A DNA stretch of 48,668 bases. It comes from Chloroflexota bacterium (GTDB lineage Bacteria > Chloroflexota > Anaerolineae > Anaerolineales > Villigracilaceae). The position numbers were made by a program, and so were the translations under genes. The notes below the pieces were generated by a model that was given only the letters and a program-made list of their open reading frames with translations, was not told where the DNA came from and did not search any database. The stretch is taken from assembly GCA_005778035.1 (NCBI GenBank), contig SXKT01000038.1, positions 1 to 48,668 on the forward strand. The letters run 5' to 3'. Below, piece by piece: positions 1,423 through 14,020 of the stretch; position 1 is the first letter of the stretch, and each line of letters starts with the position of its first letter.

Positions 1423-2273
1423 CGATCGGAATTATTGGAGGCTCTGGCCTTTACGGTATGAAGGACTTGAAAAAAATCGATGAATTGGATGTTGATACCC
1501 CGTTTGGAAAAACATCCTCTCCGATTGTGATCGGCGAAATGGACGGAACCAAGGTAGCCTTTCTTGCACGGCACGGCATCGGTCATTTCATCAATCCAAC
1601 CGAAGTGAACTACCGCGCCAATATCTATGCGCTTAAAAAGATCGGTGTTAGCCAGCTGGTTTCAATCAGCGCGTGCGGTTCACTCCGCGAAGATTACAAA
1701 CCGGGTGATATCGTCATCCCGGACCAGATCTTCGATTTCACCAAAGACCGTGCCAGAAGTTTCTTTTCAAACGGGCTGGTAGCCCATATTGGTGTCGCTA
1801 ACCCTTTTTGTGCAGACCTTAGCCAAAAAGCGGTCGACGCAGTTAGCAAAACGGGCGCAACCGTTCATGCTGGTGGAACATTAATAACCATCGAAGGACC
1901 CCGCTTCTCAACCAAGGCAGAATCAAACACATTCCGCGCCTGGGGTATGTCGATCATTGGCATGACAGCATCCCCTGAAGCCTTTTTGGCGCGTGAAGCT
2001 GAAATGTGTTATTGCACAATGGCCCATGTCACCGATTATGATGTTTGGCACACTTCCAACGAACCGGTCACCGTCGAAATGGTCATTCGGACCCTCACCA
2101 ACAATACTGTCATCGCTCAGCAATCTGTGCGCAATTTGCTGGCAGGCATCGTGCAGCAACCATCCTGCTCTTGCCAGAGCGCTTTGGCAGATGCGCTGAT
2201 CACCAACCCATCCGTCATATCCGCACAGACGAAACAAGACTTGTCGATCCTGATTGAAAAATATATTCATTAA
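1410..2273 (+). CDS. mtnP: S-methyl-5'-thioadenosine phosphorylase
   Basis: This 287-residue protein is of normal length for the MTAP branch of the PNP/MTAP family. It cleaves 5'-methylthioadenosine with phosphate to adenine and 5-methylthioribose-1-phosphate, the first salvage step for polyamine and SAM by-products. Visible motifs are IGIIGGSGLYGM at the N-terminus, TPFGKTSSP and LARHGIGHFINPTEVNYRAN (phosphate and subunit contacts), TIEGPRFSTKAES, and GMTASPEAFLAREAEMCY, which contains the nucleoside-contacting Glu. It overlaps both neighbours, the FHA gene by 13 bases and the SEDS fusion by 20, so the four genes appear to form one coupled unit. An exact substrate preference (MTA versus inosine-type) cannot be read with certainty. 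Confidence 0.93.
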   Translation: MEKVTIGIIGGSGLYGMKDLKKIDELDVDTPFGKTSSPIVIGEMDGTKVAFLARHGIGHFINPTEVNYRANIYALKKIGVSQLVSISACGSLREDYKPGDIVIPDQIFDFTKDRARSFFSNGLVAHIGVANPFCADLSQKAVDAVSKTGATVHAGGTLITIEGPRFSTKAESNTFRAWGMSIIGMTASPEAFLAREAEMCYCTMAHVTDYDVWHTSNEPVTVEMVIRTLTNNTVIAQQSVRNLLAGIVQQPSCSCQSALADALITNPSVISAQTKQDLSILIEKYIH

Positions 2274-4677
2274 TTTGGCGCGCAAATCCATAAGCCGGTT
2301 GCGATCGCCGCTATTCCTGTTCGTGTTCGCGGCCGGTTTTTTATTTATTTACTCGCTGATCCTCACGTTTAGCGCGACCTTGCACCTTCAGCAATTTCCA
2401 AATGGCCTTCAGTGGAAGCATTGGATAGGGTTTGCGGGGTGGGTCATACCGGCATATTTTTTCACCCGCTTTACCTATCGCCGAACTCCGATCTTCGCTT
2501 CACTCCTATTCCCGATCAGTTCCTTCTTGTCTGGAATTGGCATTATGACCATCTGGCGGATCAACAGCGATTTTGGCTTTCGCCAATCGATCCTGTTTGC
2601 AGCCGTAAGCCTTTTTGTGCTTGGTGCGATCTCCGGCAACATTGGCCTTGAACACATCAGGCGGTATTTGGGCTGGTTATTGGCAGGCAGCCTGTTATTG
2701 ACCATCGCTACCTTGTTCGTTGGCACCAATCCATCCGGCTATGGAGCGAATCTTTGGCTGGGTTGTTGTGGGATCTATTTGCAACCATCCGAACCACTCA
2801 AATTGTCATTTTTATTAATACTCACGAACTTGGCGGCGGTAGATACCCAAAGATCGCCTTGGTCAATTCCATTGGGCATCATTGCTGTGTTATCAGTTGG
2901 CGCTATTCTGGCCCAAAAAGACATCGGAACCAGCATGGTTTTTCTGGCAATGGCCGGCGGAATTGCGGTGTACAGATGGAATAAGTGGCAGACCCTGGCC
3001 ATTGAAGCAAGCCTGCTCGCCATGGGGTTGGCCATTGCTACCAATTTTGTTCCGCTCGTACGCCAAAGGTTCGAAACATGGTTAAACCCATGGCAAGATG
3101 TAAGCGGCAACTCATACCAAACCATCCAATCGATGATCGCCATCGCGAATGGCGGATTAAATGGACGAGGGCCAGGATTGGGTTTTCCAACAGTCGTACC
3201 GGTTGCTCATTCCGATTTTATTTTTACCGCTATCAGCGAAGAGCTTGGCATCATTGGCGCTCTTGCGGTATTGATGCTTTTCTTTTTACTGGTATTTATC
3301 GGTTTTGAGATCGCCAAATTTACCCCGGACCGCTGGGAAAAATACATCGCGGCAGGCGTTTCAATCTATTTGGGCGCCCAGGCATTGACCATTATCGGCG
3401 GCAACCTCAATCTCATACCGCTTACCGGCGTTCCTTTGCCTTTTTTGTCGTACGGGGGTTCATCCCTGGCTGTGTCTTATGGCATGGTCTTGTTGCTCTA
3501 TTTTATTGGGTCCCGGCCTCCAGCCGCAGCCTTGGCTCCAACTCCATCCAGCAGCGAAAAAGGACTCTTTTTCCTCTTTGCCAGTGGGTTTCTCGTCTGC
3601 GCTTTCGGTTTGGGATACTGGGGAGTCATTAGGAATGACCAACTGCTGAAGAGAACAGAGAACCCGCGCAGGGGAATTTTGGAATCTGTAGCACAACGCG
3701 GCGCGATCCTCGACCGGGCAAACGGGGCGATCGTATCCAGCATCGGCTCCCCGGGAAGCTACCAACGCAAGATCTGGATCCCATCACTTTCTCCTATTGT
3801 TGGGTACAACATACCCTTTTTTGGCCAAACCAACATTGAAGCAGCCTACGATGATCCTTTGCGAGGCGAACGTGGATACCCAGACCTGCAACTTTGGTGG
3901 AGCCATCTGGTGTATGGAAGGCCTCCTAATGGGATCAACATCCGGACCACCATCGACGCAGGACTGCAAAAAAAGTTGGTCGCATACTATGGCAACAGGG
4001 TCGGTGCGGGGATTTTGTTAAACGCCGCCAGTGGCGAACTATACGCATTGGTTTCTACCCCTTATATAAGCAATGATCAATTAGGCGCAGGTAAGGCACA
4101 ACTCCCCGAAGTTGGTGGTCCTTTGCTCAATCGTATTTCCATGGGCGTCTATCCAACCCGGATATTGAGAAATATGGCATCCGAGATCGCGCCAAAAGCC
4201 CAGGGCACTGGCCAACTTGAAGCTGAAAAATGGATCGAGACCCAACTAAAGGCAAACACTCCAAAAATTGGATTCGATGAATTGGCTTACGTTGAACCGG
4301 GTACTTTTACGCCCCTCATGGCAGCCAGGCTATTTTCAGCCATCAGCAATGCCGGCACCTGCGCAGGGCTGCAATTTGTTAGCGCGGTAGAATCACCCAC
4401 TGAAGGTTGGGTGATCTTGCCGGCATCACAGATGACCCCTGAATGTATCCCGCCTGTTAAGGCGGCTTCCTTTGCGGAAAAACATTCCACCTCCAGCAGC
4501 CTGTTTTGGAGCGCAACCGGGTATGATACCAAAACCAACACGACCTTTTATGTTGCCGGTACAATGCCTGAATGGAATGGGACACCGCTTACGTTACTGG
4601 TATTTTATGAAAAACCCTACTCAAGTGGGGTGAAACTTGAATTGGACAGGTTATTTTTGGAATTATTGACACAATAA
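2254..4677 (+). CDS. SEDS (FtsW/RodA) glycosyltransferase fused to a degenerate class B PBP domain
   Basis: The 807-residue protein has two parts. Residues about 1-430 form a multi-pass SEDS domain with all hallmark motifs: LQPSEPLK, QKDIGTS, SYQTIQSMIAIANGGLNGRG, AHSDFIF (conserved Asp) and PLPFLSYGGSS. SEDS proteins polymerise glycan from lipid II. Residues about 460-807 resemble PbpA-type class B PBPs (RGAILDR, IVGYNIPFFGQ, IEAAYDDPLRG, TIDAGLQ, SGELYALVSTP). Where the Ser-x-x-Lys motif should follow 'YP' the sequence reads YPTRILRN, and no SxN or KTG motif is visible, so transpeptidase activity is probably lost. The start is TTG at 2254, overlapping mtnP; TTG at 2275 is an alternative. 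A terminator follows. Confidence 0.88.
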   Translation: MKNIFINLARKSISRLRSPLFLFVFAAGFLFIYSLILTFSATLHLQQFPNGLQWKHWIGFAGWVIPAYFFTRFTYRRTPIFASLLFPISSFLSGIGIMTIWRINSDFGFRQSILFAAVSLFVLGAISGNIGLEHIRRYLGWLLAGSLLLTIATLFVGTNPSGYGANLWLGCCGIYLQPSEPLKLSFLLILTNLAAVDTQRSPWSIPLGIIAVLSVGAILAQKDIGTSMVFLAMAGGIAVYRWNKWQTLAIEASLLAMGLAIATNFVPLVRQRFETWLNPWQDVSGNSYQTIQSMIAIANGGLNGRGPGLGFPTVVPVAHSDFIFTAISEELGIIGALAVLMLFFLLVFIGFEIAKFTPDRWEKYIAAGVSIYLGAQALTIIGGNLNLIPLTGVPLPFLSYGGSSLAVSYGMVLLLYFIGSRPPAAALAPTPSSSEKGLFFLFASGFLVCAFGLGYWGVIRNDQLLKRTENPRRGILESVAQRGAILDRANGAIVSSIGSPGSYQRKIWIPSLSPIVGYNIPFFGQTNIEAAYDDPLRGERGYPDLQLWWSHLVYGRPPNGINIRTTIDAGLQKKLVAYYGNRVGAGILLNAASGELYALVSTPYISNDQLGAGKAQLPEVGGPLLNRISMGVYPTRILRNMASEIAPKAQGTGQLEAEKWIETQLKANTPKIGFDELAYVEPGTFTPLMAARLFSAISNAGTCAGLQFVSAVESPTEGWVILPASQMTPECIPPVKAASFAEKHSTSSSLFWSATGYDTKTNTTFYVAGTMPEWNGTPLTLLVFYEKPYSSGVKLELDRLFLELLTQ

Positions 4678-4728: not shown

Positions 4729-5121
4729 TTACTTGCCGTAACCAGGGCCTTTGGTATAAAAATCGGCATTGGCTTTAATGGACCCTGTCAGGTCCACCAC
4801 TTCGCCAGCAGCCAATTGCTTGGTTGAGGATAGCTGCACAGCTTTTCCGTTATGGTCGGTACCGCTGTAATTGCCGGTTAGACCCAGTTCATTTACAAAC
4901 TCGCCGCCTCGGGCTTTGAAGTTGGCAGGAACATCATCAGCCGGGAAGATGGCATTGTACGGGCATTCCGGTACGCAAGCGCCGCAGTCAATGCAGGTAT
5001 CGGGGTCGATGTAAAAGGTGGGATAACTCTCCTGCGGATTGCCTGGGGTGATGCATTCCACTGGGCAAACATCCACACAACCACCATCCCGTAAACATAA
5101 ACTCGTTATTACATGTGCCAT
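4729..5121 (-). CDS. two-cluster ferredoxin (FdxA-like) with C-terminal extension
   Basis: This is a 130-residue soluble electron carrier. The N-terminal half carries Cys9, Cys15, Cys19 and Cys23 (ending CPVECI) and a second set, Cys43-x2-Cys46-x2-Cys49-x3-Cys53-Pro, as in 7Fe/8Fe bacterial ferredoxins such as FdxA. Residues about 65-130 are an extension without cysteines that I do not recognise. It is divergent from the molybdenum-hydroxylase gene group, making it a plausible electron partner; that is inference from context. GGAG lies upstream of the ATG, and a TATAAT box is further upstream at 5153-5158. Confidence 0.9.
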   Translation of the reverse strand: MAHVITSLCLRDGGCVDVCPVECITPGNPQESYPTFYIDPDTCIDCGACVPECPYNAIFPADDVPANFKARGGEFVNELGLTGNYSGTDHNGKAVQLSSTKQLAAGEVVDLTGSIKANADFYTKGPGYGK

Positions 5122-5259: not shown

Positions 5260-5291
5260 AAAAGTTACTATTTTAATTTATTGGAGTGGCT

Positions 5292-6032
5292 ATGAATTTT
5301 GAATACTTTAGGCCAGAAAGCAACACCCAAGCAGCTACGTTATTGGAAATGCCCGGTTCCATCGCCTCCTACGGTTTGTCTCCTGCTATCGACCGTACAT
5401 CCACCGCGCGGATCGTAGACCTGCAGAGCTGCGGCTCCTCGGCCATCCGAATTGAAGCGGGAAAATTGGTTACCGGTGCATGTACAACCCTTCAAAGCAT
5501 GTTGGAAAGCGATCTGCTACCCAAATCTCTGGCTGACGTGATCAGGCTGGAAGATCGCCAAAACCTTAGGAACATGCGCTCGATCGCGGATGTGATCTTA
5601 TCCGGGGATGGAAAGTCGCCATTGCTTACAACTTTAATGTCACTGGATGCCCAAGTGACCCTCTATCCTTCCAACACCGTCACTCTTGGTGACTATGTAG
5701 CCAATGGCAGGCAAGGATTGATCACCGACGTATCCATTCCGCTTGATGTGCAATTCGCGTTTCAGTCCCTTCGTCGAACCCCCCAGGATGTTGGTATTGT
5801 GATCGCAGCGATGGCAAAGTGGAAAACCGGCAGGGTTCGTTTGACATTGGGTGGCACAGGAATTACCCCTACTTTGGTTGTAGATGGCATTGGCAGTGAT
5901 GGCATTGAAAAGGCCGCAAGCAGCGCGTATGGCCAGGCAGCCGACCCCAAAGCAAGTGCCGAGTATCGATCTGCCATGGCCAGGCAGCTAACACTCCGTT
6001 GCGCTGAATCACTCGCTGACCTCGCTGGGTAA
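5292..6032 (+). CDS. degenerate FAD-type subunit of a molybdenum hydroxylase (YgfM-like)
   Basis: The protein has 246 residues, a little short of the usual 260-290 for CoxM/XdhB/YgfM-type FAD subunits. The fold is recognisable from the opening FEYFRPESNTQAATLL, the mid-region NLRNMRSIADVI aligned with the NxRNxxTIGGNI block, and the C-terminal LTLGGTGITPTLV. Both flavin-contacting glycine motifs are gone: the AGGT-type loop near residue 30 reads SYGLSP and the TIGGN loop reads SIADVI. FAD binding is therefore doubtful and a structural role more likely. ATG at 5292 is preferred over GTG at 5286 because GGAG sits 5 bases before the ATG. The M16C protease starts 2 bases after its stop. Confidence 0.75.
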   Translation: MNFEYFRPESNTQAATLLEMPGSIASYGLSPAIDRTSTARIVDLQSCGSSAIRIEAGKLVTGACTTLQSMLESDLLPKSLADVIRLEDRQNLRNMRSIADVILSGDGKSPLLTTLMSLDAQVTLYPSNTVTLGDYVANGRQGLITDVSIPLDVQFAFQSLRRTPQDVGIVIAAMAKWKTGRVRLTLGGTGITPTLVVDGIGSDGIEKAASSAYGQAADPKASAEYRSAMARQLTLRCAESLADLAG

Positions 6033-6034
6033 AA

Positions 6035-8929
6035 ATGAGCTTTACCTTACTTCGCGCCCAACAAATACCTGAGTTAGCGGCAACGGCCAGAATTTACATT
6101 CATGATGGCACCGGTGCGAGGCTGTTGACGGTATCCAATTCGGACGAAAACAAATGTTTTGGCGTCAGTTTTCGCACTCCAAACCAAGATTCCACCGGAG
6201 TAGCCCATATTTTGGAGCACTCCGTATTGTGCGGTTCCCAGAAGTATCCCGTTAAGGAACCATTTGTTGAGATCATCAAAAGTTCATTGCAGACGTTTGT
6301 AAACGCGTTTACCTACCCGGATAAAACATGCTACCCATGCGCCAGCACAAACCTGCAAGATCTGCGTAATTTGATCGATATATACCTGGACGCGGTTTTT
6401 TTCCCCAACATCACCGAACTGACCTTTAAGCAAGAAGGTTGGCATTATGAGGTTGAATCACCTTCAGGCCCGTTGAGCTTCAAAGGCGTTGTTTTCAACG
6501 AAATGAAAGGCGCGTATTCCTCTCCCGATGACCTGCTAGGCGACAAGTCCCGCCAGTCGCTGTTCCCGCAAAACACGTACCGATTCGACGCAGGCGGAGA
6601 TCCACAATTCATCCCCGACCTAACCTACGCGCAATTTAAGGCATACCACCAAACTTTTTACCACCCCAGTAATTCCTACATCTTTTTTTACGGCGATGAC
6701 CCTGAAGAGCAACGCCTGCAGTTACTTGAACCGGTGCTCTCAAGGTTTTCCAAGATCAACCCTCAATCCGCGATAGAAAACCAACCCGCCTTTACGACCC
6801 CCTCGACGTATCACTACGTTTACGATAGCGGAGAGTCAGCAGATGCCAAAGCGCATTTGACCATAAACTGGAAGCTAACCGCCGCAACAGACCTTGGTTC
6901 ATCTTTGGCATTCTCACTGATCGACCATCTTTTACTGGGCACGGCTGCCGCTCCGATCAAGCGGGTACTCACCGAAAGCGGCTTGGGTGAGGAAGTGATC
7001 GGTGGTTTCGATGACCAATTGAAGGAAACCATTTTTTCAATTGGGTTGAAAGGTATCCAGCCAGAAAACCTTGCCAAAGTGGAAGCCCTCATCCTTAAAA
7101 CCTTGGAAGAAACCGTTCAAAATGGTTTGGATCCTGAAAGTGTCAGCGCAAGCTTAAACACCCTGGAATTCCACATCCGGGAACAAAATTCCGGCAGATT
7201 CCCCCGCGGTTTGGCTTTGATGTTAGGCGCGCTTTCTACCTGGCTTTACGAAGGTGACCCGATCGAGGCGATCAGCTACGAGGCAAGCCTTGCAGAACTT
7301 AAGTCCTTTGCCCTGCAAAAAGGCGCGATCGAAACCAAGATCAAACAATGGTTGATCGACAACCAACACCGCACTACTGTTCAGTTATTACCCGATGAGA
7401 AGGAAGGAAAACGGCGAGAATCGCTTGAAACCGACCGATTAGAAAAAGTAATGGCTGGCCTTACCCCAGCAGAGTTGAGATCGATCGCCAACGATGCCGA
7501 TCTTCTCAAACTTCACCAGGATACTCCCGACAGTGACGAAGCATTGGCAAGCATCCCAAGTTTGTCATTAGCCGATTTGGATAGGTCGATCAAGACCTCT
7601 CCTTTCGCGGAACATGGCCTTGGCGGCAACAAGGTTTTCCACCAGGTGTTGGAAACGAACGGCATTGCATACATCGACATCGGTTTTGACCTTTCAGGCG
7701 TACCATCCAGGTTGTTGCCATACCTTGGATTGCTCGGGAAACTGCTGACCGAGCTTGGTACCGAAAGTTATGATATGCTGCGATTGACCCAAAAGATCGG
7801 CCAGGACACGGGCGGTTTGAGGGCGAGCCAATTTATCAGCGAGAAATATGACCGGTCTGGCCAGGCCAAATTCAGCTTCATCCGTGGCAAGGCGCTTCAG
7901 CATCAGATCGGCGCAATGCTCGATCTCGTTTTGGAGATCAGCCAACACGCGAAGCTCGACCAAAAAGAACGGTTTTTGCAAATAGTTGCCGAAAGACGAT
8001 CGGCGTTGGAAAGCGGCCTGATCCCTGGCGGGTCAAATGTGATCCATCAAAGATTAAAGGCTCACTTTTCCCAGGCAGATAGGGCACTCGAAGAGATCTC
8101 TGGGATCAACCAGATCTTGTTTTTGCGCCAACTCTCGGACATTGCCACTAAAGATTGGGATGCGATACTGTCTGACTTGCGCAACCTGTTTGGCAGCATC
8201 TTTAGCAAGAATAACGCGATCGCCAATGTAACCATTGATGAGCACAACTGGCCAGCGGCAGCTGCCGAGTTGCAAAGATTTTTTGCCAGCCTTCCTGACC
8301 AACAGATCCCCAACCAAAAATGGGATCTTCCCGCGTTGCCACGCCACGAGGTTTTCACACTGCCAAGCCAGGTAAATTATGTCGGCAGTGCGATCGACCT
8401 TTATGGCAATGGATACTCCCTGGATGGCAACATTCACGTGATCAACAATTACCTGCAAACCACGTACCTTTGGGAGAAAGTGAGGGTCCAAGGCGGTGCG
8501 TACGGTGGATTTAGCGCTTTTGACCCGATCACCGGCATCTTTGACTTCCTCAGCTACCGCGACCCCAACGCTAAAAAGACGTTGGAGACATATGACAAAA
8601 CCGGTGAGTTCTTGCAAAAGCTTGAAATTGGCGACAGTGAACTTGAAAAAACCATCATTGGCACCATTGGAGATGTGGACACCTACCTGTTGCCAGATGC
8701 CAAAGGGTGGCAATCGTTTACCCGATCACTCCTTTCGCTTTCCAATGAAGAACGGCAGAACAGGCGTGACCAGATCTTCGCTTCAGATGGAGCAGATTTT
8801 GGCAAATTTGGCCAGGTGCTTCATAACACTTCAAATACCCAGCATGTTGTCGTTTTAGGTTCCGTAAATGCCGCAGATGAACTAAACCAGCTGCATGGCG
8901 AAACCGTTGTTGTAACCAAACTCTTATAA
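6035..8929 (+). CDS. M16C zinc metalloprotease, presequence-protease (PreP/Cym1) type
   Basis: The 964-residue length is typical of the M16C single-chain family with two peptidase-like halves and a hinge. The inverted zinc motif HxxEH is His58-Ile-Leu-Glu61-His62, inside GVAHILEHSVLCGS, and the downstream GVVFNEMKGAYSSP supplies the third zinc-ligand Glu. The family degrades unfolded peptides, such as cleaved targeting or signal peptides, in a closed chamber. There is no signal peptide, so it is probably cytoplasmic. It lies between two subunit genes of the molybdenum hydroxylase with gaps of 2 and 14 bases, so it is very likely co-transcribed with them. A functional link is unproven. Confidence 0.9.
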   Translation: MSFTLLRAQQIPELAATARIYIHDGTGARLLTVSNSDENKCFGVSFRTPNQDSTGVAHILEHSVLCGSQKYPVKEPFVEIIKSSLQTFVNAFTYPDKTCYPCASTNLQDLRNLIDIYLDAVFFPNITELTFKQEGWHYEVESPSGPLSFKGVVFNEMKGAYSSPDDLLGDKSRQSLFPQNTYRFDAGGDPQFIPDLTYAQFKAYHQTFYHPSNSYIFFYGDDPEEQRLQLLEPVLSRFSKINPQSAIENQPAFTTPSTYHYVYDSGESADAKAHLTINWKLTAATDLGSSLAFSLIDHLLLGTAAAPIKRVLTESGLGEEVIGGFDDQLKETIFSIGLKGIQPENLAKVEALILKTLEETVQNGLDPESVSASLNTLEFHIREQNSGRFPRGLALMLGALSTWLYEGDPIEAISYEASLAELKSFALQKGAIETKIKQWLIDNQHRTTVQLLPDEKEGKRRESLETDRLEKVMAGLTPAELRSIANDADLLKLHQDTPDSDEALASIPSLSLADLDRSIKTSPFAEHGLGGNKVFHQVLETNGIAYIDIGFDLSGVPSRLLPYLGLLGKLLTELGTESYDMLRLTQKIGQDTGGLRASQFISEKYDRSGQAKFSFIRGKALQHQIGAMLDLVLEISQHAKLDQKERFLQIVAERRSALESGLIPGGSNVIHQRLKAHFSQADRALEEISGINQILFLRQLSDIATKDWDAILSDLRNLFGSIFSKNNAIANVTIDEHNWPAAAAELQRFFASLPDQQIPNQKWDLPALPRHEVFTLPSQVNYVGSAIDLYGNGYSLDGNIHVINNYLQTTYLWEKVRVQGGAYGGFSAFDPITGIFDFLSYRDPNAKKTLETYDKTGEFLQKLEIGDSELEKTIIGTIGDVDTYLLPDAKGWQSFTRSLLSLSNEERQNRRDQIFASDGADFGKFGQVLHNTSNTQHVVVLGSVNAADELNQLHGETVVVTKLL

Positions 8930-8943
8930 CCAAGGAAACAAGC

Positions 8944-11841
8944 ATGGAAATCAAATTGGTCATTAATGGCATCGAAAAAAATTATCCCGCCCAGGCCGGG
9001 GATTCATTGTTCAAGGTATTGCGCGAGAACGGATACTACGGCATCAAATTTGGGGATGAAGGAGGCCAGGCGGGCTCCGATACGGTACTGCTGGATGGTC
9101 GCCCTGTCAACTCCGGATTGATGCTTGCAGCGCAGGCGGAAGGCCACAAGATCGTCACCATTGAGGCTTTGGGAGAAAACCCCGACAAGGGATGGAAACC
9201 CAATGAAGGTTTGCACCCACTCCAACGCGCGTTCATCGATCATGGCGCTATCCAATGCGGTTATTGCACCCCTGCGCAGATCTTGGCGGCAAAATCGCTT
9301 TTAGACAAAAACCCCAACCCGAACGAACAGGATGTCCGGGAGGCCTTGAATGGTGTGCTTTGCCGTTGTACAGGGTACGAAAAACCTGTCAAGGCTGTTT
9401 TGTCTGCCGCGGCCGAAATGCAAAAAAACGGTAGCGAAGTATTGCCGCAGGAAAGTTTGCCACAAATGATCACCGCGATCGGCAAACGAGAAAACAAGGT
9501 CGTTGGAAAGCCCGAACAAAAATTGGACGCGGTAAAACTTGCTCAAGGGAAGACCGCTTTTACCGCAGATTATCTGCCAGCAGGCGCATTGTACGCCAAG
9601 GTGTTGCATTCACCCCACGCCCATGCCGAGATCCTTACCATAGACACAAGCGCTGCAAAAGCATTGCCAGGCGTAGAGGTTGTACTCACCTGGAAAGATC
9701 TTCCCAGGGTTGTCTATTCCACTGCCGGCCAGTCCGACCCCATCCCTGGCCCGTTGGATAGCTTTTCATTGGATCATACGGTCCGATTCGTTGGCGACCG
9801 GGTTGCCATCGTTGCTGCCACAAGCGCGGAAGTTGCGGAACAGGCGCTGCGCTTGATCAAGGTAGAGTACCAGCTATTGCCCGCCGTGATAGACATGGGC
9901 GAGGCAATGTTGGAAGGCGCACCCCAGATACACACCGAAGCTGAATACCTGAATTTTGCCGATTCTGACCCCAGGAAGAACCTTGCGGCTGAAATACGGA
10001 TCGATATTGGCGATGTAGAAAAAGGATTTGCCGAAGCCGACAAGGTTTTTGAGCACGAATACACGGTTTCCAAGGTCCAACAGGCACACATCGAACCACA
10101 CGTCTGCATCACATATTGGGATGAAGATGACAGGCTGACGATCAAAACATCCACCCAGGTGCCGTTCCATATTCGCCGCGTTTTGGCACCGGTTCTTGGT
10201 TTGCCGGTCAAAAAGATCCGCGTCATCAAACCCCGCATCGGCGGTGGTTTTGGCGGCAAGCAAGAGATTTTGATCGAAGATGTGGCCGCCCATGTGACCA
10301 TTGTGACTGGAAAACCCGTCATTTACGAATACACCCGCGAGGAAGAATTTATCGCCGCCCGTTCACGCCACCCAATGCGAATCCGTATGAAAACCGGAGT
10401 GAAGTTGGATGGCACCATCACTGCCAATGCGATGTACGCGTTATCCGACACGGGGGCTTATGGTTCCCATGCGCTCACCGTAACTGGAAATACCGGCCAT
10501 AAATCTCTGGCCTTATATGTGGGTGATGGTCCTTATCGAAAAAATCCCAATATCCGCTTTTACGCCGACATTGTTTACACCAACACACCGCCGGCCGGCG
10601 CGTTTAGGGGTTACGGTGTACCGCAAGGGTACTTCCCGTTGGATCGGCATTTGGAAAAGATCGCCGCGGAAATTGGGATGGACCCGATTGAATTCAAGCT
10701 GAAGAACACCATTCATGAGGGTGAATACCACCCATTCAGCACAGCATGGAATGAAGGCCGCGAACCCCGCCCTGAGATCATCCATACCGTCGGGCTTTCC
10801 AAATGCGTTGATGCGGGCAAAAAAGAGATCGATTGGCAGCAAAAACGAGCCAACGCAAATTGGCAAGTTGTACCGGGACACCCCCACTTGCGCAAAGGTA
10901 TTGGCGCGGCATTGGTAATGCAAGGTACCGCCATCCCTTATTTGGATATGGGCGGCGCTTCCATCAAGATGAACGACGATGGATCTTTCAACCTTCACAT
11001 CGGCGCCACGGACCTCGGAACAGGCTCCGACACGGTCCTCTCCCAAATGGCAGCGGAGATCCTGGGGGTGAACACCGATGACATTATTTGTTACTCTTCC
11101 GATACGGATATGACCCCGTTCGACAAAGGCGCGTATGCCTCAAGTACAACGTATGTCTCTGGCAGCGCGGTTTGCAAAGCCGCTGAAATGGCCGCAAAAC
11201 AGATCAAGGAACGCGCCGCCAAGATGATCAATGAGCGAACCGGCAAAACCTATTCGTCCGATCAGATCACACTGGCAAATGGGCAGGCAATCGCATCGGC
11301 TGGTGATATGGTTACCCATGCCGAGGTTGCGTTGAACACATTGCACCACAGCGAACAATTCCAGGTCATGGGCACGGGATCCCACGTTTCCCCATCCTCA
11401 CCGCCGCCGTTTGCCGCACAATTTGCGGAAGTGACCGTAGACACTGTCACCGGGGCATACACTGTTGATAAACTGGTAATGGCGGTGGACTCAGGCATCA
11501 TCATGAATCCGATGACAGCTTCAGGACAGATCGAGGGCGGCATGATCCAGGCGCTTGGCTACGCGGTTTGCGAAGAAATGACTTACGACGCCAACGGCAA
11601 GCCATTGGAAAAGGATTTTGTCGATTACCACATCTATGCTGCCAACGAGATCCCCGAAATGCGGACCATTTTTGTTGAGACCAACGAACCCAGCCACCCA
11701 TTTGGTGTCAAAGCGGTAGCCGAGATCCCAATGGACGGTGTGGCTCCCGCAGTGGGCAATGCCATCTTCCACGCCACCGGCGCAAACATCGATACTCTGC
11801 CAATGACTCCTGAAAAGATCTGGCGGGCGTTGCAAAATTGA
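8944..11841 (+). CDS. molybdenum hydroxylase, Fe-S and molybdopterin domains fused (XdhD/YgfN-like)
   Basis: This is a 965-residue member of the xanthine-dehydrogenase family in the fused architecture of E. coli XdhD (about 956 residues). Residues 1-160 are the Fe-S region. The four cysteines of the ferredoxin-type [2Fe-2S] site are replaced by Asp38, Ala43, Asp46 and Gly58, whereas the cofactor-proximal cluster is intact (Cys105, Cys108, Cys140, Cys142). Residues about 180-965 hold the molybdopterin domains, with IGGGFGGKQE, PPAGAFRGYG, DLGTGSDT and the candidate catalytic Glu927 in KAVAEIPMDG. It should hydroxylate a heterocyclic or aldehyde substrate, but which one cannot be read. XdhC at 13208 fits a sulfurated Mo cofactor. 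The FAD partner is at 5292. Confidence 0.9.
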   Translation: MEIKLVINGIEKNYPAQAGDSLFKVLRENGYYGIKFGDEGGQAGSDTVLLDGRPVNSGLMLAAQAEGHKIVTIEALGENPDKGWKPNEGLHPLQRAFIDHGAIQCGYCTPAQILAAKSLLDKNPNPNEQDVREALNGVLCRCTGYEKPVKAVLSAAAEMQKNGSEVLPQESLPQMITAIGKRENKVVGKPEQKLDAVKLAQGKTAFTADYLPAGALYAKVLHSPHAHAEILTIDTSAAKALPGVEVVLTWKDLPRVVYSTAGQSDPIPGPLDSFSLDHTVRFVGDRVAIVAATSAEVAEQALRLIKVEYQLLPAVIDMGEAMLEGAPQIHTEAEYLNFADSDPRKNLAAEIRIDIGDVEKGFAEADKVFEHEYTVSKVQQAHIEPHVCITYWDEDDRLTIKTSTQVPFHIRRVLAPVLGLPVKKIRVIKPRIGGGFGGKQEILIEDVAAHVTIVTGKPVIYEYTREEEFIAARSRHPMRIRMKTGVKLDGTITANAMYALSDTGAYGSHALTVTGNTGHKSLALYVGDGPYRKNPNIRFYADIVYTNTPPAGAFRGYGVPQGYFPLDRHLEKIAAEIGMDPIEFKLKNTIHEGEYHPFSTAWNEGREPRPEIIHTVGLSKCVDAGKKEIDWQQKRANANWQVVPGHPHLRKGIGAALVMQGTAIPYLDMGGASIKMNDDGSFNLHIGATDLGTGSDTVLSQMAAEILGVNTDDIICYSSDTDMTPFDKGAYASSTTYVSGSAVCKAAEMAAKQIKERAAKMINERTGKTYSSDQITLANGQAIASAGDMVTHAEVALNTLHHSEQFQVMGTGSHVSPSSPPPFAAQFAEVTVDTVTGAYTVDKLVMAVDSGIIMNPMTASGQIEGGMIQALGYAVCEEMTYDANGKPLEKDFVDYHIYAANEIPEMRTIFVETNEPSHPFGVKAVAEIPMDGVAPAVGNAIFHATGANIDTLPMTPEKIWRALQN

Positions 11842-11851
11842 AAGGAACTGC

Positions 11852-13207
11852 ATGAGCGTTACCAATGAGCCGATCTTCGTAACCGGCCACCTCAACCCAG
11901 ATACAGACTCGATCGCAGCCGCGATGGGGTACGCCTGGCTATTGCGGCAACGGGATGGCGTCAATTCGATCGCTTCTCGCGTGGGTGCGGTTAACCCCCA
12001 AACAGCTTTTTTATTAAAAAAACTGGAACTGGACCCGCCGTTATTGCTCAGTGATGCCTCACCCCGGTTTGAATCGGTAATGCGCTCGCTGGATACCGTT
12101 TCACCAGATTCTCCCCTTTCAGACGCCTGGGCGCTAACGACCCGAACCGGCGGTATAGCGCCTATCATCACGGAAGATGGCTATCCGTACGGCATGATCG
12201 ATGGCGTTAGTTTGTTCAACTTTTTCCGAAAAATCATCGGCCCGCGGTTGGATATGTCTGACCACCGTATTGCGGATATCATGTCTGCTCCGTGCAAGGA
12301 TGCAGCCGATACCAACGTCCCCAAATTTGTTTTTGGCGCCCACATTCGCGACTCCTTGAATAAGATCTTGCGCGAGGAACACAATGATTTCTTTATTGTG
12401 GATGAAAGTGGCCACTACAAAGGCATTTGCCACCAAAGGGATGTTCTAAACCCGCCGCGATTAAAGATCGTAATGGTTGATCACAACGAACCGCGGCAAT
12501 CGATCGCCTCCTTGGACGAAGCCGAATTATTGGAGATCCTGGACCACCATCGGTTGGGAAATCCATATACCCATGCCCCCATCAAGGTCACAGTGGATAC
12601 CGTGGGCTCAACCAGTACACTGGTCTCGGAACTAACCAGCGATGCGGGCTTGTCTATGCCTTCCCAAATCGCGGGAATGTTGCTGGGCGGATTGTTGGCC
12701 GACACCCTCATCCTTACCTCGCCAACCACTACCCAGCGAGACAGAACTGCAGCAGAACGGCTGGCGAGATGGGCTTTTGTGGGTAATGGTCCTCTAAAAG
12801 GGTATGACATTCAAAAATACGGCATGGAAGTACTCAGTGCCGGCGCTGGGCTCGCCAACCGCGACCCACATGACGTGGTAAGTACCGATATCAAATCGTA
12901 CGAATCCAATGGCTTCAAATTCGCTGTTGCCCAAGCAGAAGTTACCGACCTGATGCAACTTGCAGAACACAGGGAAAAACTGCAGCAAGCGCTAAATGAA
13001 TTGGCCAAAGCCCGGGTTTTGGATTTTGCGATCTTGCTGGTAACCGATGTTGTGCGTGGCTCCAGCCGGGTATTTGTATCGGAGCCAACGCCGCCAGTGA
13101 TGGCAGAATTGCCGTTTCCACCTCTGCCAGATGGCACGCGAGACGCCCCAGGCGTGGTTAGCCGTAAAAAACAATTATTGCCGGCGATTCTCGGGTTAAT
13201 AGAATAA
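11852..13207 (+). CDS. ppaC: CBS-domain family II (manganese-dependent) inorganic pyrophosphatase
   Basis: The 451-residue DHH-family enzyme hydrolyses pyrophosphate in the cytoplasm. Metal motifs are GHLNPDTDS at residues 12-20, MVDHNE and DHHRLGN (the DHH motif). The C-terminal DHHA2 domain has the substrate-binding SRKKQ near residue 440. Between the first and second metal motifs, about residues 65-205, lies a pair of CBS domains, making this the nucleotide-regulated subclass (AMP/ADP inhibit and ATP activates in known members) without room for a DRTGG domain. It starts 10 bases after the molybdenum-hydroxylase stop, and its own stop directly abuts the xdhC-like ATG. It may simply be a housekeeping gene carried in this transcript. 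Confidence 0.92.
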   Translation: MSVTNEPIFVTGHLNPDTDSIAAAMGYAWLLRQRDGVNSIASRVGAVNPQTAFLLKKLELDPPLLLSDASPRFESVMRSLDTVSPDSPLSDAWALTTRTGGIAPIITEDGYPYGMIDGVSLFNFFRKIIGPRLDMSDHRIADIMSAPCKDAADTNVPKFVFGAHIRDSLNKILREEHNDFFIVDESGHYKGICHQRDVLNPPRLKIVMVDHNEPRQSIASLDEAELLEILDHHRLGNPYTHAPIKVTVDTVGSTSTLVSELTSDAGLSMPSQIAGMLLGGLLADTLILTSPTTTQRDRTAAERLARWAFVGNGPLKGYDIQKYGMEVLSAGAGLANRDPHDVVSTDIKSYESNGFKFAVAQAEVTDLMQLAEHREKLQQALNELAKARVLDFAILLVTDVVRGSSRVFVSEPTPPVMAELPFPPLPDGTRDAPGVVSRKKQLLPAILGLIE

Positions 13208-14020
13208 ATGCAACCCAACCTATACCCTGAGATCTACGCGCTTGGCAAGGCAAATGAATCTTTTGCCGTATGCACCGTTGTGGGCGCCGCGGGATCATCT
13301 CCACGGCACGCAGGCGCAAAAATGGTCGTTCGCCCCAACGGCAGCATCATTGGCACCATCGGTGGCGGAGAAATGGAACACCGGGTGATCAAGAGTGCAC
13401 TTGGCTGTTTAGAGACCGGTAAGGCAACCTTGTTGGAATATCACCTGAATGACCTGGAGAAAGGTGACCCAGGTGTTTGTGGAGGCCAAGTGACGATCTT
13501 CATTGAACCAAACCTGCCAGCCCCCAAGTTGATCGTTTTGGGTGCCGGGCACGTTGGCAAAGCGCTTGCCAAATTGGCCAAATGGCTTGGTTTTTGGGTA
13601 GCCATTAGCGACGACCGGGCTGATCTATGCACCCCCGACTTGGTTCCAGATGCGGACGCCCACATCGTTTGCCCAATGACTGACCTGCCTAACCACATCA
13701 ACCTGGACAAACAAAGTTACTTGCTCTTAACCACCCGTGGTGTAAAGATCGATATTCCTGGCCTCCCGGCGTTGTTAGAGAGCCAAGCCGGGTTCATTGG
13801 CGTGATCGGCTCTAAAAAAAGGTGGATCACAACCCGAAACGAGTTGGTGTCTCGCGGCATATCCGATAATTTGATCTCCAAAGTTCGCTCCCCAATAGGC
13901 ATCAACATTCACGCCGAAACCCCAGAAGAAATTGCGCTTAGCATCATGGCTGAAGTGTTAATTTTCAAAAATTCTACCCAGGGGGAATTGATGGACATCA
14001 ATTCCAAATTGGGCAAATAA
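13208..14020 (+). CDS. xdhC: XdhC/CoxI-family molybdenum-cofactor maturation protein
   Basis: The protein has 270 residues in two domains. The N-terminal XdhC/CoxI domain has VCTVVGAAGSSPRHAGAKMVV and GTIGGGEMEHRVI. The C-terminal Rossmann domain starts near residue 108 with LIVLGAGHVGKALAKLAKWLG and ends with GVIGSKKRW and RSPIGINI. Family members bind the Mo cofactor, help its terminal sulfuration and deliver it to xanthine-dehydrogenase-type enzymes. Its presence as the last gene of the run supports the idea that the XdhD-like protein is a live, cofactor-loaded enzyme. The ATG follows the ppaC stop with no gap. Confidence 0.92.
   Translation: MQPNLYPEIYALGKANESFAVCTVVGAAGSSPRHAGAKMVVRPNGSIIGTIGGGEMEHRVIKSALGCLETGKATLLEYHLNDLEKGDPGVCGGQVTIFIEPNLPAPKLIVLGAGHVGKALAKLAKWLGFWVAISDDRADLCTPDLVPDADAHIVCPMTDLPNHINLDKQSYLLLTTRGVKIDIPGLPALLESQAGFIGVIGSKKRWITTRNELVSRGISDNLISKVRSPIGINIHAETPEEIALSIMAEVLIFKNSTQGELMDINSKLGK

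Follow-up and report, generated by a model that had tools for sequence, protein, structure and literature searches.

Enzymes of the xanthine oxidase family carry electrons along a chain that is treated as fixed, linking the molybdenum (Mo) site, a proximal [2Fe-2S] cluster, a distal [2Fe-2S] cluster, and FAD. The best full-length solved relative of the protein described here is the Desulfovibrio gigas aldehyde oxidoreductase MOP (1sij), which likewise combines Fe-S and Mo domains on a single chain but differs in keeping both [2Fe-2S] clusters and in oxidizing aldehydes, with ~28% identity in the fold alignment. MOP lacks a flavin subunit and relies on an external carrier. For the Mo subunit, the best sequence match is 4-hydroxybenzoyl-CoA reductase (1rm6), a xanthine oxidase family enzyme acting as a reductive dehydroxylase; unlike the present protein, it retains both [2Fe-2S] clusters, and its flavin subunit carries an additional [4Fe-4S] cluster. 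In Escherichia coli, XdhD (YgfN) with a co-purified ~30-kDa protein, putatively YgfM, converts urate to yanthine with NADH, and its Glu606 is proposed from a predicted structure to orient urate (Li et al. 2025, PMC12507026). The same work places a putative F420-dependent reductase in Chloroflexota SsnA clusters in place of YgfK/UacX, and its main text makes no mention of [2Fe-2S] clusters (PMC12507026). In the literature searched, we found neither biochemistry on any Chloroflexota member nor a description of the cluster loss reported below.

The window, a stretch of 48,668 nucleotides from an Anaerolineales bacterium of the Chloroflexota, encodes an XdhD-like protein in an intact open reading frame, with these features:

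8944..11841, + strand: XdhD-like molybdenum hydroxylase with fused Fe-S and Mo domains, 965 aa (Pfam, NCBIfam)
9055..9117, + strand: emptied distal [2Fe-2S] site, residues 38-58, with D38, A43, D46, and G58 for the four Cys (alignments, class tallies, dN/dS)
9256..9369, + strand: intact proximal [2Fe-2S] site, C105 at 9256-9258, C108 at 9265-9267, C140 at 9361-9363, and C142 at 9367-9369 (sequence)
10753..10755, + strand: Glu604, aligned with E. coli XdhD Glu606 (alignment)
11722..11724, + strand: Glu927, Mo-site glutamate conserved across the xanthine oxidase family (alignment)

Pfam matches comprise Fer2_2 (residues 72-152, 98 bits), Ald_Xan_dh_C, MoCoBD_1 (263 bits), and MoCoBD_2 (227 bits), and the Pfam search returned no Fer2. 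The top NCBIfam match is TIGR03313, at 722 bits below its curated cut-off of 1101.9. With its Mo-binding domains, Mo-site Glu, and proximal CGYC ... CRC motif, the protein is, by sequence, a member of the xanthine oxidase family, but it lacks the four-Cys distal ferredoxin-type [2Fe-2S] site. The first-pass annotation had claimed this combination of a lost distal site, an intact second set of Cys, and an intact candidate catalytic Glu927, and each part is borne out. Ortholog alignments place the canonical distal Cys columns at the four substituted residues, the proximal Cys lie within the Fer2_2 match and probably hold a [2Fe-2S] cluster, and the Glu927 column is invariant in one alignment and Glu in nearly all filled rows of another.

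The E. coli XdhD/YgfM system resembles that of the window in its fused Fe-S and Mo domains, its separate FAD subunit, the equivalent glutamate (Glu606/Glu604), an SsnA pathway in the genome, and D-A-D replacing the first three distal Cys. It differs in that both Cys sets were lost, in a separate lineage, and in working with YgfK, whereas in the window protein the proximal set persists, and an F420-dependent LLM gene lies beside SsnA in its genome.

To place the emptied site in a wider context, orthologs were sought in the genomes of 100 relatives, all sampled from Chloroflexota. XdhD orthologs are present in most of these, and the named contigs of the group belong mostly to Anaerolineales and Anaerolineae. 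Among 165 aligned sequences, a few of them duplicates or near-duplicates, 96 have lost the distal Cys and kept the proximal ones, 52 (a count that includes the outgroup sequences) have all eight Cys, 6 have lost both sets, 2 have lost the proximal set and kept the distal one, and 9 are incomplete. The distal-lost, proximal-kept class is nearly all Anaerolineales, and eight-Cys relatives of the window protein exist within the same order. Proximal Cys are retained in 96/98 Chloroflexota sequences with a D-x-D type distal loop, the exceptions being L044 and L168. The 96 aligned orthologs in the distal-lost, proximal-kept state come from dozens of independent genomes, which rules out a frame or assembly error as the cause of the missing Cys. 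Nor has the distal site been rebuilt within the N-domain, which has 4 to 6 Cys in the distal-lost class versus 8 to 11 in the eight-Cys class. Cys in the FAD subunit, considered as substitute ligands, are enriched but scattered and do not supply four conserved ligands.

The emptied loop is itself conserved, with a D-E-x-G-x-[STA]-G-x-D motif across the class. Pooled over 39 independent pairs of the distal-lost clade, dN/dS is 0.074 in the distal loop, 0.058 in the proximal region, and 0.061 in the Mo domain, which implies constraint on the loop even without its cysteines. A clade with the proximal set only, held by purifying selection, thus exists, as the first-pass annotation had anticipated for a genuine loss. 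The class has Asp46 in 96/96 sequences, Asp38 in 94/96, and Ser/Thr43 in 95/96, and these oxygen-donor residues would suit a loop that uses D38, S/T43, and D46 to coordinate a different metal or an atypical cluster. We regard this as improbable, as residue 43 is Ala in the window protein, Gly predominates at the fourth position, and another clade has S-T-A-D. The AlphaFold model (mean pLDDT 71.6) falls below 50 in the distal loop and gives no usable loop geometry.

Four states are found within the family: both clusters, proximal only, distal only, and none. On the main tree, built from the Mo domain alone with the trait's own columns left out, 6 changes of distal state and 5 of proximal state are required. 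The free tree scatters the Anaerolineales D-x-D proteins over several places, hinting at several independent origins, but the AU test does not reject a single one (p 0.62), and the tree constrained to one D-x-D origin is better than the free tree by 10.6 log units. Separate losses are seen in E. coli (both sets), in L218, L224, and L236 (both, with S-T-A-D), in L094 and L221 (proximal only), and in L044 and L168 (proximal after distal). Three fragments too short for the Mo-domain tree (L185, L186, and L189) have also lost the distal site (D-S/T-D-S) and are separate on the N-domain tree only. Most proximal losses repeat the same replacements, with Ser for Cys105 and Asp/Glu for Cys142.

Two of these groups are described here in their own right. 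L094:71-3115 and L221:7481-10537 keep the four distal Cys and have lost the four proximal ones (SNVD and SDSE), the reverse of the window. L218, L224, and L236 form a distinct group without either cluster (STAD and S-[SA]-[CD]-E).

The E. coli sequence has SGYNDP and no cluster Cys, as the first-pass annotation had stated. Its sister in the tree, the XdhD-like protein L192 of Cetobacterium somerae, resembles the window protein in pathway context (beside SsnA) and domain order, but differs in having all eight Fe-S Cys. The E. coli loss is therefore separate, a shared origin with it is unsupported, and the window state is no step towards E. coli XdhD. The proposal that the window state represents an intermediate fails on that route and holds within the Anaerolineales branch, where L044 and L168 went on to lose the proximal set. 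The XdhD family is a natural series of eight Cys, distal lost, proximal lost, and both lost, in which the role of each cluster, and the urate-to-yanthine reduction of E. coli, can be approached experimentally. This bears on gut urate breakdown.

The likely chemistry was approached through gene context, for which the following neighbours are relevant:

4729..5121, - strand: FdxA-type ferredoxin, divergent from the FAD subunit (NCBIfam, Pfam)
5286..6032, + strand: FAD-type partner subunit (TIGR03312/PF00941-like), both FAD-binding loops lost (NCBIfam, Pfam, alignment, fold prediction)
6035..8929, + strand: PreP-type M16 peptidase between the FAD subunit and XdhD (Pfam; upstream neighbour in 37 loci)
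11852..13207, + strand: DHH/CBS inorganic-pyrophosphatase-like protein (NCBIfam, Pfam; near XdhD in 67 loci)
13208..14020, + strand: XdhC-family Moco maturation protein (NCBIfam, Pfam; same-strand neighbour in 61 loci)

In relatives, a compact locus runs in the order SsnA, Fno, CofE, CofD, CofC, F420-dependent LLM reductase, FAD subunit, XdhD, DHH pyrophosphatase, XdhC, and a second XDH small subunit, and SsnA is present in 80/101 relatives. In the window this operon is dispersed, with an SsnA-npdG-CofE-F420 LLM cluster on another contig of the same genome (G000). CofD was not found in G000, which is 64% complete, or in the closest relative, G005, which leaves the F420 pathway of the window only partly documented. 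All 89 filled rows of the distal-lost class have Glu in the Glu604 column, where the alignment is gapped. Taken with the SsnA/F420 context and urate reduction by E. coli XdhD, this residue suggests that the window protein is probably a urate-type reductase in an F420-linked pathway, in which electrons would enter Mo rather than leave it. The first-pass annotation had the enzyme possibly handing electrons to an outside carrier, which presupposes oxidation; gene context and Glu604 favour the inward direction.

We propose that the gene product is a working XdhD-type reductase of anaerobic Chloroflexota that receives its electrons through the proximal cluster only, and put the probability of this reading at roughly 0.45. 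In an Anaerolineales bacterium whose ancestor lost the distal [2Fe-2S] cluster, the enzyme would reduce an oxopurine, probably urate, with its Mo site and proximal cluster kept, and the latter would most likely be the sole relay bringing dehydroxylation electrons to Mo. Certain observations argue against this reading. The urate assignment draws on context and one residue, and the protein scores below the TIGR03313 cut-off. In addition, a proximal-only relay does not explain the persistence of no-cluster and distal-only members, several with a flavin subunit. The same members qualify the earlier picture of a shortened wire, which stands as regards the distal loss but not as a general account, since others lost the proximal set first or lost both.

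The source of electrons turns on the flavin partner. An FAD subunit was detected in 46/53 distal-lost genomes, nearly every sequence of the class retains its first glycine loop, and the subunit is under purifying selection (dN/dS 0.17). Relaxed selection on it after distal loss is not seen, the FAD/Mo rate ratio being 2.4 versus 3.05 in eight-Cys loci. The window subunit departs from this pattern in that both glycine-rich FAD loops are absent, whereas an FAD-wired xanthine dehydrogenase would have a partner with intact loops. Its sole NCBIfam match is TIGR03312 (61.5 bits, below the curated cut-off of 241.5), and its predicted fold (pLDDT 89) has flavin subunits of Mo hydroxylases as top PDB matches. 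Among the sequences compared, both loops are gone only in the window genome and in G005 (L240:6361-7098), and the subunit is still encoded in both. If the proximal cluster is the sole relay, the retained flavin subunit would serve most relatives as electron source, through a longer jump or shifted docking. The loss of the loops in the window calls for another donor there and in its closest relative, for example ferredoxin or an F420/NADPH-system carrier.

It is also conceivable, though somewhat unlikely, that the flavin still feeds the enzyme without using the distal position, either with FAD docked nearer the Mo domain or by tunnelling over ~20 angstroms from FAD to the proximal cluster. The constrained FAD subunit and glycine loop of the class agree with this, as do canonical FAD loops in the flavin subunits beside the cluster-free L224 and L236 and in E. 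coli YgfM; a flavin subunit was not found near the cluster-free L218. The window and G005, with both loops lost, do not fit. By a rough estimate, flavin-to-Mo tunnelling across both missing sites, as in E. coli, would be far too slow under canonical docking, which also counts against a feeding flavin. The missing loops, together with the repeated cluster losses in the family, might instead be read as decay, or as a turn to non-redox function with the retained Cys as structural remnants. Strong purifying selection over the whole protein, intact Mo-site motifs, the retained XdhC gene, and the 96 orthologs make this highly improbable.

A further reading is that the Fe-S wire is unused in turnover throughout the family. 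In that case two substrates would oxidize and re-reduce Mo at one site, for example with xanthine donating electrons and urate accepting them, in a redox-neutral hydroxyl transfer (xanthine becoming yanthine), and the clusters would erode freely, being kept only where they aid folding or Moco insertion. Such a reaction requires no wire, the losses, several of them separate, follow no fixed order and include proximal-only and total loss, and E. coli XdhD is reported active without cluster Cys. However, NADH was present in the published E. coli assay, the window's clade shows almost no variation in the proximal set and has a conserved flavin subunit, and no report of the exchange reaction (xanthine + urate) was found in the literature searched; we therefore consider this explanation rather unlikely. 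The broader idea that XdhD-type enzymes need no Fe-S wire, with Mo regaining electrons at the substrate site or straight from flavin and the clusters lost in any order, appears unlikely as well. Distal-only and cluster-free members, one of the latter reported active, suggest that the wire may be dispensable in the family, and the NADH activity of E. coli XdhD without cluster Cys may indicate a bypass of the usual wire. If true, the xanthine oxidase family would include a class that dispenses with long-range electron transfer, perhaps acting as a xanthine/yanthine transhydroxylase. The conserved and repeated cluster losses make the electron route to Mo a testable question.

Of the other genes around XdhD, the PreP-type M16 peptidase is probably unrelated to the system. 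The FdxA-type ferredoxin is a possible electron carrier through a weak link; it occupies this position only within the window's own genus and at one distant locus, and is ruled out as a general donor. The DHH/CBS pyrophosphatase-like gene downstream of XdhD is without an obvious role in purine breakdown. The window also encodes an 807-aa protein (2254-4677) with an FtsW/RodA-like membrane domain followed by a PBP-like part, as judged by eye, and a similar 802-aa open reading frame, also identified by eye, lies upstream of the FAD subunit in G005 (L240:3088-5496). Two unusual arrangements were seen in relatives. L078:16162-18171 is a single open reading frame joining an F420-dependent LLM oxidoreductase to a UbiA/MenA-like prenyltransferase, and L083:12490-13947 is a second XDH small subunit that inverts the usual XDH domain order, starting with the FAD domain and ending with the two [2Fe-2S] domains.
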